Shown here: positions 41,401 through 60,937 of the stretch, one piece after another
How positions within the stretch are numbered: position 1 is the first letter of the stretch
How the letters are laid out: the number at the start of each line of letters is the position of its first letter
Origin: Candidatus Bathyarchaeota archaeon
Lineage (GTDB): Archaea > Thermoproteota > Bathyarchaeia > Bathyarchaeales > Bathycorpusculaceae
Assembly (NCBI GenBank): GCA_026014585.1
Contig: JAOZIA010000024.1
Span: 310,001-374,000, forward strand
Length of the DNA stretch: 64,000 nt
Reading direction: 5' to 3'
Notes under the pieces: generated by a model
What the model was told of the DNA's origin: nothing
What the model saw: the letters and a program-made list of their open reading frames with translations, nothing else
Databases searched by the model: none
Position numbers and translations under genes: made by a program

Positions 41401-41925
41401 CTATATTTCAACAAGATTTTCCAATAAATCAGGAGCAATAGGACCAATCCTAAAGAGCACTTCAGCCTCATGTCCATCGTTCTCAAAATCCTCTTCACTA
41501 AACAAAATAGTCTCCTGATAACTCGCTTTCAGTAACAATGCAATTTCAACAAAGTTCTTTCTGGAAACCTTATTAGAAGGATTAATAGTGCCCTCAAAAA
41601 ATTTTGCGCCAGCCTGCCTTATTTGATAAAGCAACAAAGTTTTCTGCAAACCAAGACCGCGGTAATCTTTGTGCACCACAATTTCCCAATTAAAAAAAGT
41701 ATCAGGTCGTTTTGGCGGAACATAACCTGAAGAAAACGCAATCAAACGTTCACCATCAAGTACAATCATGCAGGTGTCAGAGAAGTCTCGAGCTAAAAGG
41801 AAGTAGGTATAACGGGAGTTTAACCCGACGTAAGGTCTGTTAGCGACAAGTAGCTTGTAGACTTCTTTTATGTCGCTTATGTTCACATTTCTGATTGTGA
41901 AGGCTGTGGCAGTTTTTTTGGGCAT
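41401..41925 (-). CDS. EctA-like GNAT acetyltransferase, probable beta-lysine N-acetyltransferase
   Basis: This 174-residue GNAT closely follows the diaminobutyrate acetyltransferase (EctA) pattern: the NSRYTYFLLARDFSDTC substrate region, SSGYVPPKRPDTFFNWE, the acetyl-CoA loop DYRGLGLQKTLL, GTINPSNKVSRKNF and the C-terminal EVLFRIGP. No ectB or ectC is present. Instead its ATG shares one base with the kamA stop (TAATG). The likely substrate is therefore beta-lysine, giving N-epsilon-acetyl-beta-lysine, a compatible solute of methanogens in which AblB, a longer GNAT, does this step. The fold is seen; the substrate is inferred from context. Confidence 0.75.
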   Translation of the reverse strand: MPKKTATAFTIRNVNISDIKEVYKLLVANRPYVGLNSRYTYFLLARDFSDTCMIVLDGERLIAFSSGYVPPKRPDTFFNWEIVVHKDYRGLGLQKTLLLYQIRQAGAKFFEGTINPSNKVSRKNFVEIALLLKASYQETILFSEEDFENDGHEAEVLFRIGPIAPDLLENLVEI

Positions 41926-43268
41926 TATGGTAGCCCTGGATCATTGCTTTTTCTGCGTTGTAGCCTAATGTTGCCCTTTGGTACAAGAGATATCTCTTTT
42001 TTAGAACCATCGGTAAACAGTTTTTCGAGACCTACAAGATTTTTTTCGTCTTCGTCAAGTTTTAGTTGCAGGGCGCAGTTTTGGCAGTCTCGATTGCAAC
42101 GCACGGGTTTGTAATCTTCAGGTTCATTGTAAGTTGTGATTACGCCTTCATAATTGCGCAGTATCACCTTGTTACTTGACCAGGAAATGATGTAATTTGG
42201 CATTACTGGAATTTTTCCTCCGCCGCCTGGTGCATCGATGACAAAAGTTGGAATTGCAAACCCGCTGGTGTGACCAAACAGGCTTTCCATGATTTCTATG
42301 CCTTTCCCTACAGAGGTTCGGAAATGGGTAAGTCCCTCGGATAGGTCACATTGGAAAAGGTAGTATGGACGCACTCTGTTTTGGACAAGTTTCTGGCAGA
42401 GTTTTTTCATGATTTGGGGACAATCATTAACTCCAGCTAAAAGAACTGATTGATTGCCTAAGGGTATGCCTGCATCTGCTAGTTTTCTTAGGGCTTCTTT
42501 TGCTGATGGGGTAAGTTCACGAGGATGATTGAAATGAGTGTTTATCCATAATGGATGATGCTTTTTGAGCACATTTACCAGTTCATCAGTTATTCGGTAA
42601 GGCAAAACAACAGGTGTTCTAGTTCCAATTCGTATAACTTCCACATGTGGTATATTGCGAAGTTCAGTTAAAATCCAGTCAAGGTATTTGTTAGGTAGCA
42701 TTAGTGCATCGCCACCTGAGAGGAGAACATCGCGGATTTGTTTGTTATCTTTGATGTATTTTATGCCTTTGAGGATCTGTTGCTTGGATGGGTTATGGTC
42801 TGAATCGCCGACTTTTCTTTTTCTTGTGCAGTGCCTGCAATACATTGCGCAGCGGTTGCTGATTAAAAAGAGAACACGGTCAGGGTATCGGTGAGTGATT
42901 CCTTCTGTGGGGCTGTCTTTGTCCTCATGTAGCGGGTCTTTCATGTCATATTTTGAGATTTTTAGTTCTTCAGGGTTTGGGAAGGATTGCTTAAAGATTG
43001 GGTCTTGACGGTAATTTTCTTTATCAATCAAAGAAGCATAATATGGTGTTATGCTAAGAGGAAACTTTTCGATGGTTTTTTTGAGTTCTTGTTTTTCTTT
43101 TGTAGAAAACTTTATTCCTGTAAAATTTTCAAAATCTCTAATGGTTTTTATAGAATTTTCAATTTGCCATTGATAGTTTTTCCATTCAAGAACTGTTACC
43201 GTTCTATCAAAATTTTTTGAAACATAAGATTGATAACTGGTAAGAGGCTCACTTTTCTCTTTAATCAG
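41925..43268 (-). CDS. kamA: L-lysine 2,3-aminomutase
   Basis: This radical SAM, PLP-dependent enzyme makes beta-lysine. The cluster motif is CAMYCRHC in the FLISNR context. There is a [11 protein letters not shown] loop, and the C-terminal zinc cysteines are in CNRDCQNC. Homology clearly continues upstream of the first ATG/GTG/TTG (TTG 43031): codons from 43268 encode WKNYQWQ, then [10 protein letters not shown], both typical of the KamA N-terminus, and the frame is open. No standard start exists there. CTG 43268 lies eight bases after GGAGAG, with a TATA box 45-55 bases upstream, so I use it as the start (447 codons). ATT 43265 is the alternative. Confidence 0.85.
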
Positions 43269-47097: not shown

Positions 47098-47961
47098 CTG
47101 AAAATAAACGTTAGATGCAAAACTGATGTTCTAGTTCCTTCAAGAACTGCTTTTGGTTGGACCATAAATCCTTACAATGGTTGCAGGCACGGGTGTCTTT
47201 ACTGTTACGCTAGAAAATATGAATACAACAAATGGATTAAACCTACACCAAGAAAGGACGTAATTGAAAAACTAAAAAAGGATATTAAAGTTCTAAAGAG
47301 CACAGATAAGATATGCAATATTCAAGACATCCTTCTAGGCTCAAACACTGACTCTTATCAACCACTAGAAGCGGAGTATAAGCAAACAAGGCAGGTTATT
47401 GACGAATTAATCTCCAATGAATTACCCTTCAGCATCCTAACTAAAAGCAATCGAGTTCTCAGAGATATTGATTTGTTTAAGGGCTATCAATGGTGCAGAG
47501 TTGGAGTTACTCTTACTTCTTTTGATGAAACATTCAGAAGAGACCTAGAACCATATACTGTTAGCTACGATGAAAGAATCAAAGTTTTAGTTGCTCTGAA
47601 AGAAAATGGCATCAGCACATATCTTAGTGGAGAACCCATAATGCCCGTTGAAGCATCAAATCCTTTGGAGATAGTGCATAAACTCAAAGATGTTGTGGAT
47701 TTGTTTGAGTTTGGTTTGTACGATGATAAAGAAGATTATGATTATACGCCAGTAGCTTACAAAAAACATTACAATGATGACACTTATCATGCACCTATTT
47801 TCAGAGAGCAGATTCAATACTGTCAAGAGAATAACATTAACTACTGTAACTCATCACATTCTAGAGCGTTCTTTAAGAAAAACAATCTTCCATTCCAAAA
47901 ATATCCACTGCTAAAGCCCCCGATGCCTAAAGCACAACAATGTTTAACAGCATTTTGCTAA
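47098..47961 (+). CDS. SPL-like radical SAM protein of the element, CTG start
   Basis: This 287-residue protein has NPYNGCRHGCLYCYARKYE, the exact C-x-x-x-C-x-x-C pattern of spore-photoproduct-lyase-like radical SAM proteins. It then has LLGSNTDSYQPLE and FSILTKSN, as in that family. The first ATG/GTG/TTG in frame (TTG at 47473) would delete the Fe-S motif. CTG 47098 lies five bases after GAGGTG and is the only plausible start between an in-frame TAA (47083) and the motif. The true substrate is unknown; DNA repair or a modification role is possible. Confidence 0.82.
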   Translation: MKINVRCKTDVLVPSRTAFGWTINPYNGCRHGCLYCYARKYEYNKWIKPTPRKDVIEKLKKDIKVLKSTDKICNIQDILLGSNTDSYQPLEAEYKQTRQVIDELISNELPFSILTKSNRVLRDIDLFKGYQWCRVGVTLTSFDETFRRDLEPYTVSYDERIKVLVALKENGISTYLSGEPIMPVEASNPLEIVHKLKDVVDLFEFGLYDDKEDYDYTPVAYKKHYNDDTYHAPIFREQIQYCQENNINYCNSSHSRAFFKKNNLPFQKYPLLKPPMPKAQQCLTAFC

Positions 47962-59671: not shown

Positions 59672-60418
59672 TCACGGTGTGGGTTGTAGGTTTGAGAGTT
59701 TTTGTGCTATGTCAATTCCCCGTTGTGTGACTATGTAGTCGCCTTTGTTGTTTTCCTGCGCTATTAAACCCGTGTCCACGAGTTTTTTGATGTGAAAAAT
59801 CAGATGCCCACCCTTCAAGCCTGTTAGCTGAGTTAGTTGTGAGAAGCTTTTTTTGCCTTCGCTGATGTTAACCAGAATTTTGAGTCGCACCGTGTTAGCT
59901 AAGGGTTCCAGCACAGATTCCACAAGCTCATCAATGTTGAGGCTTTGTTGGTCGGGGGCTTCGGATTTTTCCACGAGCACGACGGTTTGAAGGGAGCGTT
60001 TTTGTCGTTTGAGTTTTTTTTGGAGTTTTTGGTGGCATTCTTCGCATGGGGCGCCTTTGGCTTTTTGGATGGTGTTACCGATTTGGCTGATTTTTGTGTC
60101 GAGGTCTGTTAGGGCTTCTTGGATTTTGGTTTCTTTAATGATTTTTAAGTTTTCTTCTGTGAGGGTTTTGAAGTGTTGGGTGCATTTTTGGCAGTTTTTG
60201 CAGTTGGGGTCAGTGAGTGTGGGGACGTCTTCGTTTAGTTCGTCTTGGAGTTGGTTTGTGTAGAGTAGGAGGCGGTTTTGGGTAAGGGCTTGTTGTGTGG
60301 CTTTTAGGCGTTCATTTAGGATGCTGCCGTGGAGTTGGTTTAGTTCGTTGCGTAGGTTTTTGATTTCTGTTTTGAGTTCGTGTATTGCGTTTACTGTGGG
60401 TTGGTTTGGGTTGGGCAT
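59672..60418 (-). CDS. winged-helix regulator with coiled coil and cysteine clusters
   Basis: This 248-residue protein begins with a long coiled coil (about residues 8-60). A CKNCQKC cluster lies near residue 75, a second coiled coil follows, and then CEECHQKL near 125. The C-terminal ArsR-type winged helix (about 165-245) has the recognition region FSQLTQLTGLKGGHLIFHI and the wing GDYIVTQRG. The cysteines could bind a metal or sense redox state. It is divergent from the flavodoxin gene (81 bases between), so the shared region is its likely target. Confidence 0.82.
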   Translation of the reverse strand: MPNPNQPTVNAIHELKTEIKNLRNELNQLHGSILNERLKATQQALTQNRLLLYTNQLQDELNEDVPTLTDPNCKNCQKCTQHFKTLTEENLKIIKETKIQEALTDLDTKISQIGNTIQKAKGAPCEECHQKLQKKLKRQKRSLQTVVLVEKSEAPDQQSLNIDELVESVLEPLANTVRLKILVNISEGKKSFSQLTQLTGLKGGHLIFHIKKLVDTGLIAQENNKGDYIVTQRGIDIAQKLSNLQPTP

Positions 60419-60499
60419 ACTCCTGCACTTTAGTATATTTTTGTTACCTAAAACTATATAAAAATATCCACGGATTTTGAGACAAAGGAGGAAAAATAC

Positions 60500-60937
60500 A
60501 CGACAAAAATCCTAATCGCATACTACACCAAAACAGGCAACACCCAAAAAACCGCAGAACAAATTGCCCAAGGCGCAAAAACACCCAACACCACCACAGA
60601 AGTAAAACCAGTAACCGACATCACCCCACAAGAAGCAGCCCAAGCAGACGCCATAGCATTTGGCTCCCCCGCATACTTCAGCTTAATGAGTGGACCAGTA
60701 CTCACCTTGCTAACCGAAATGTACTTCATCAAAGACAAGTTCGCAGGCAAACCCATGACAGCATTTGCAACGGGTGGCGGAAGCCAAACCAAAACCGTCG
60801 AAAACATCGAAACCATACTCAAAGTCTTCAACCCAAAACTCACCCCAGGCGTAGCAGTTAGCAGCGACCTCACAGAAACCGAGCAGGAGCAAGCCAGAAA
60901 ACTCGGTGCAGCCCTCGCCAAAGCTACAGAGAATTAA
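60500..60937 (+). CDS. flavodoxin, near-cognate ACG start
   Basis: This 145-residue flavodoxin has KILIAYYTKTGNTQKTAEQI, the FMN phosphate loop (T-x-T-G-N-T), at its N-terminus. It then has AFGSPAYFSLMSGP and ATGGGSQTKTVENI, covering the flavin ring loops. The homology begins at Thr-Lys-Ile, where the DNA reads ACG with GGAGG eight bases upstream. No ATG, GTG or TTG exists in frame until ATG 60686, which would remove the FMN loop. I annotate ACG as start; a T-to-C sequencing error is the alternative. It is divergent from the Cys-rich regulator. Confidence 0.8.
   Translation, partial: TTKILIAYYTKTGNTQKTAEQIAQGAKTPNTTTEVKPVTDITPQEAAQADAIAFGSPAYFSLMSGPVLTLLTEMYFIKDKFAGKPMTAFATGGGSQTKTVENIETILKVFNPKLTPGVAVSSDLTETEQEQARKLGAALAKATEN

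Follow-up and report, generated by a model that had tools for sequence, protein, structure and literature searches.

Archaeal translation has been reviewed as starting on AUG, GUG and UUG, on mRNAs that are led by a Shine-Dalgarno (SD) site or carry short leaders (PMC7531240). Main genes that start on other codons are rare, and switches to CUG and AUU number only 3 in 61,358 ancestral AUG starts of bacteria and archaea (PMC5622118). In the upstream open reading frames (uORFs) of yeast, ACG stands at 6% versus 1% each for AAG and AGG (PMC6898956). The yeast initiation factors are related to the archaeal ones. To our knowledge, ACG lies outside the start codons accepted by prokaryotic gene finders or by NCBI code table 11, and genes that start with it get lost, truncated or labelled as pseudogenes by standard gene finders. 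A literature search that covered only a minority of subscription papers turned up no account of ACG starts in archaeal genes or in bacterial genes led by an SD site; given this coverage, a missing report is not proof of novelty.

Here we analyze a flavodoxin gene with ACG in the place of its start codon, located in a 64,000-nucleotide stretch of DNA from a Candidatus Bathyarchaeota archaeon (hereafter the window; positions 310001–374000 of contig C23 in the 2.31-Mb genome G000). Comparison with related genomes, mostly fragmented draft assemblies, suggests that the ACG at 60500 is very probably where translation of a functional gene begins, and that it belongs to a family-wide pattern of near-cognate initiation, probably brought about by the SD site and the Met-initiator tRNA.

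Results

The flavodoxin gene and its orthologues

A sequence-only reading of the window had described a flavodoxin gene in which GGAGG and eight further bases precede ACG at 60500, and both the sequence and Pfam bear this out. The SD site GGAGG (60487–60491, forward strand) is followed at the right spacing, the 8 bases AAAAATAC, by ACG (60500–60502, forward strand), after which the frame continues ACA AAA ATC CTA ATC and runs for 145 codons to a TAA at 60935–60937. The gene (60500–60937, forward strand) encodes a protein of 145 residues that matches Pfam Flavodoxin_5 (5.5e-8) and Flavodoxin_1, and its score of 33.7 bits for PF12724 exceeds the curated cut-off of 27.

Among the orthologues, the start column is occupied by ACG in G000 and in G023, a sister species of the same genus whose protein is 63% identical and whose start reads AAGGAGG-AAAAGCAC-ACG-AAA-AAA-ATC; by ATG in G062, from another genus of the same family (68%); by GTG in G009 and G011; and by TTG in three more distant relatives. 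The SD site is conserved along with the column, as AAGGAGG in G023, as GGAGG and GGAGGT before the GTG of G011 and G009, respectively, and as AGGAGAA before the ATG of G062. The presence of ACG in the same place in an orthologue at 63% identity argues that its occurrence at the flavodoxin start goes beyond chance.

The similarity extends into the upstream region. Alignment of the orthologues reveals a conserved element, GTTACCTAAAACTATATAAAA (60443–60463, forward strand), which resembles an archaeal BRE/TATA core and presumably serves as the promoter; the block is the same or nearly the same in G000, G023 and G062, at equal distance from the start, and when leader and element are aligned the flavodoxin ACG falls on the ATG of G062. 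A divergent gene (59672–60418, reverse strand) encodes a winged-helix regulator with an ArsR-type HTH (Pfam HTH_5), and the G023 orthologue is likewise adjoined by a similar divergent gene. Between the winged-helix and flavodoxin genes, the segment GTATATTTTTGTTACCTAAAACTATATAAAA (60433–60463) is strongly conserved and is likely to be the operator/promoter of the pair.

ACG and CTG at the starts of other genes

The deepest ACG case is a tubulin/FtsZ-like gene (Pfam Tubulin_2), which surfaced in an unbiased comparison of orthologue pairs; G023 has ACG at its start, and G000 has TTG. Across 20 genomes of the family, drawn from several genera, the start column of this gene holds ACG in 18, ATG in 1 and TTG in 1. 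Most copies from the genus have an in-frame TAA or TAG two codons 5' of the ACG, and 15 of the 18 ACG copies contain no canonical codon from the upstream in-frame stop to the ACG, while an upstream TTG or GTG is present in 3. Two genomes from another family of the class start the gene with TTG or ATG.

A pattern search of the G000 genome returned one more match of the same look, GGAGG-GGAAAAAC-ACG, ahead of an Hsp20-like frame. The SD-anchored start column of this family in 49 genomes contains ATG (23), TTG (15), ACG (9) and GTG (2) and nothing else, and ACG is confined to the genus. These starts sit behind G-rich leaders, with SD leaders throughout the Hsp20 set of the genus. On the Hsp20-like tree, at least six changes to or from ACG are needed, and well-supported branches make four of these unavoidable. 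As regards individual copies, five of the nine with ACG have an in-frame TTG 5–7 codons upstream that overlaps the SD region, another is preceded by an ATG at a distance of 15 codons, and only three are free of an upstream TTG or ATG; because an in-frame TTG lies within the SD region of some copies, it is the column and not any single copy that constitutes the evidence.

The sequence-only reading had also listed two CTG starts, each with an ideal SD site. Both exist, at 47098 (forward strand) and 43268 (reverse strand), but a strong SD site (AGAGGTGAT) is found only at 47098, and the gene at 43268 has only GGAGA. The former is a radical SAM gene (47098–47961, forward strand) with an in-frame stop 5 codons upstream and the next ATG/GTG/TTG at +125; no close orthologue was found among 20 relatives, and its CTG start is predicted from the anatomy of the frame. 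The latter, a lysine 2,3-aminomutase-like gene (41925–43268, reverse strand), has an in-frame stop 7 codons upstream and the next canonical codon at +79, and its start column holds CTG in G000, G017 and G018 and ATG in G010. A TrmO-like gene (G000:C2:363139–363327, reverse strand) starts with a CTG that immediately follows a TAG stop; in relatives this position is taken by TTG, GTG or ATG. Codons one base from AUG thus occupy the orthologue start column in the flavodoxin, Hsp20-like and tubulin-like genes (ACG) and in the aminomutase-like and TrmO-like genes (CTG).

Frequency of near-cognate starts

The survey of start codons covered 844 kb of G000 and 400 kb from each of four relatives. Among the 854 orthologue pairs compared in stretches of the five genomes, 154 start columns have an SD site in both partners, and these hold ATG (81), TTG (31), GTG (21), ACG (3), ATT (3) and other codons (at most 2 each); no non-canonical codon is more frequent than ACG and ATT. 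Of the ACG columns, one (G000_261) is ambiguous because a GTG lies in frame three codons further 5', and it was not counted as solid. An ATT start in a G018 gene is accounted for by an ATG three codons upstream, and another ATT case has an ATG two codons downstream. We also listed the frames that lose coding sequence when forced to a canonical start; among the 38 SD-anchored coding edges of this kind, ACG is the commonest codon (4, against roughly 1% expected), and CTG accounts for 3. In sum, ACG and CTG proved solid in G000 and its relatives, but the ATT/ATC candidates were left unconfirmed.

Motif counts alone give no excess: GGAGG-N5-9-ACGA occurs 22 times in the G000 genome versus 59 times in the reversed control, and the case rests on the orthologue columns. 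A first codon-blind scan of all genes was too noisy because many genes are without SD sites. From the cases in 844 kb of G000, we roughly estimate that ACG and CTG starts together would make up about 1% of genes or less.

Some further candidates were noted. A homoserine O-acetyltransferase-like gene, named from its N-terminal sequence, has a candidate ACG start behind CGGAGG (around G023:C1:859679), and a 135-aa frame around G062:C1:598813 has a candidate ACG directly after a TAA stop and behind AGGAGG. Two possible ATT starts lie behind AGGAGG-type sites, near 15984 in L054 and near 111256 in G018:C18, both on the reverse strand.

Alternative explanations for the ACG codon

The main rival explanation is C-to-U editing of the mRNA, by which ACG in the DNA would become AUG and CTG would become UUG prior to translation, in the style of land-plant chloroplasts, where start codons created by such editing have been described (PMC9845219). 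One kind of change would turn both solid codons into standard starts, and ATT, ATC or ATA starts, which are beyond repair by editing, were not confirmed, although the two possible ATT starts, if true, would argue against it. The same source states, however, that editing of this kind is not observed in bacteria (PMC9845219). The leaders near the ACG of different genes have only the SD site in common, with no shared editing motif discernible by eye, and the spectrum of ACG and CTG is explicable without editing. Both codons belong to the near-cognates that are used by direct initiation in eukaryotes. We know of no C-to-U mRNA editing in archaea or bacteria, and consider this explanation unlikely.

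Alternatively, translation could start elsewhere, upstream with a longer N-terminus or downstream with a shorter protein, in which case the ACG would be an internal threonine codon. There is some room on the 5' side, with 16 open codons between the ACG and an in-frame stop 17 codons upstream, but none of these is ATG, GTG or TTG, and the TATA-like element stands only ~40 nt 5' of the ACG. Judged by the position of this element, the transcript should start just 5' of the SD site, at a predicted ~60480–60485 with a leader of ~15–20 nt, which would exclude a longer flavodoxin for reasons of space. On the 3' side, the first ATG/GTG/TTG is found 62 codons in, inside the domain and past the FMN-binding loop, leaving the frame without a usable canonical start. 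The start columns themselves also speak against an internal codon: in three gene families they always read xxG and never ACA, ACC or ACT, and since ACG represents only 11–18% of the threonine codons in sampled genomes of the family, the invariable G as the third base of ACN indicates that the column is not an internal threonine codon. A start at another site is thus very unlikely.

A third possibility, that the start codon has decayed and the flavodoxin gene is a non-expressed pseudogene, would produce the same picture in any one genome through loss of the ATG alone, but the 145-codon frame is intact, the SD site and promoter are conserved, a second species keeps ACG with an equally intact frame, and the ACG-started tubulin-like frames remain intact over ~890–900 codons; the conserved orthologues refute this reading, which we regard as highly improbable. 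A sequencing or assembly error, with T as the real base at 60501, is scarcely conceivable and is likewise refuted by the conserved orthologues: ACG is one T-to-C difference from ATG and the assembly is a draft, but the orthologue with 63% protein identity, which was assembled independently, has the codon as well, and two other genes show it in 9 and 18 genomes, respectively.

Proposed mechanism of initiation

These starts are most simply explained if Met-tRNAi initiates directly on ACG and CTG, aided by SD pairing. A short mRNA leader with a strong SD site would position the ribosome over the ACG, where the ordinary Met-initiator tRNA (CAU anticodon) would start in spite of a C-A mismatch at the middle position, and the predicted first residue is methionine. 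Other genes of the archaeal family would be initiated in the same manner, and CTG would be the other additional codon used in this way. The output from ACG is probably lower than from ATG, and there may be a regulatory reason for retaining it.

Three departures from normal translation were evaluated as causes and rejected. An abnormal initiator tRNA does not account for the starts, as the initiator-type tRNA-Met found in the stretches of G000 examined is normal, with a CAU anticodon, A1-U72 and a GGG/CCC anticodon stem. Loss of aIF1 (SUI1) does not do so either: the gene was found in G000, G001, G018, G019, G021, G022 and others across the clade, including genomes with ACG starts, and its N-terminus is intact in G018, which has both ACG and CTG starts. 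Nor do the data suggest a genetic code with TAG reassigned, TAG making up 20% of G000 stops and not being markedly over-represented 5' of start-less frames.

aIF1 also acts as a fidelity factor in start-codon choice. Codon 6 of the G000 gene reads TAG in frame (MAEVC*TCGLPKD; G000:C23:264430–264447), where the relatives compared have a sense codon; the TAG may be an error, a real lesion or a recoding site. Because aIF1 has been described as destabilizing archaeal non-AUG complexes (PMC6237735), genes with ACG or CTG starts should respond to aIF1 activity.

Discussion

The best reading of these comparisons is that two extra start codons, ACG and CTG, are used across the family in a minority of genes, and ACG in particular seems to function as a true additional start codon in this archaeal group. 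From the window alone, relaxed start selection in this organism had been suggested. The idea stands in that ACG and CTG replace ATG, GTG or TTG in the orthologue start columns of several gene families, but it was drawn too narrowly in one respect and too broadly in another: the near-cognate starts are common to the genus and to other genera of the family, and, with these starts restricted to a small minority of genes, a general relaxation is not supported; the initiator tRNA looks normal.

More speculatively, and somewhat short of an even chance in our judgment, ACG could be a fourth regular start in this Bathyarchaeota family, selected in certain genes as a built-in low-efficiency start that would render their translation responsive to the strength of the SD site or to the stringency of initiation factors. 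The tubulin/FtsZ-like gene would be the foremost example of such a low-efficiency start, and it is conceivable, at a similarly tentative level, that a eukaryote-like near-cognate logic operates here in an SD-using archaeon. A conserved ACG start in an archaeal family would mean that near-cognate initiation of main genes also reaches relatives of the eukaryotic initiation system that use SD sites. Genes with such starts would be clean natural cases in which to test how start stringency depends on aIF1, aIF2 and SD pairing.

Compared with archaeal starts as reviewed (PMC7531240), the genes described here share the SD-led, short-leader type of mRNA, but ACG and CUG are absent from the review text as archaeal starts. 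The rare bacterial and archaeal CUG and AUU starts, of the infC and pcnB type, are similar in that main genes start on near-cognate codons; ACG is, however, absent from the survey of annotated starts (PMC5622118), as would be expected if annotation never proposes it, whereas here it is recurrent and conserved. In land-plant organelles, too, the DNA of conserved genes carries ACG where ATG would stand, but editing there converts the C to U at the mRNA level (PMC9845219), whereas the Bathyarchaeota ACG is known from DNA. Finally, eukaryotic near-cognate starts, such as that of the N-terminal extension of yeast ALA1, resemble the present ones in placing ACG at the start of the cell's own genes under eIF2/eIF1-type initiation; in eukaryotes these starts lead to extensions or uORFs and are reached by scanning, whereas in Bathyarchaeota ACG would be the sole start of main genes, placed by the SD site.
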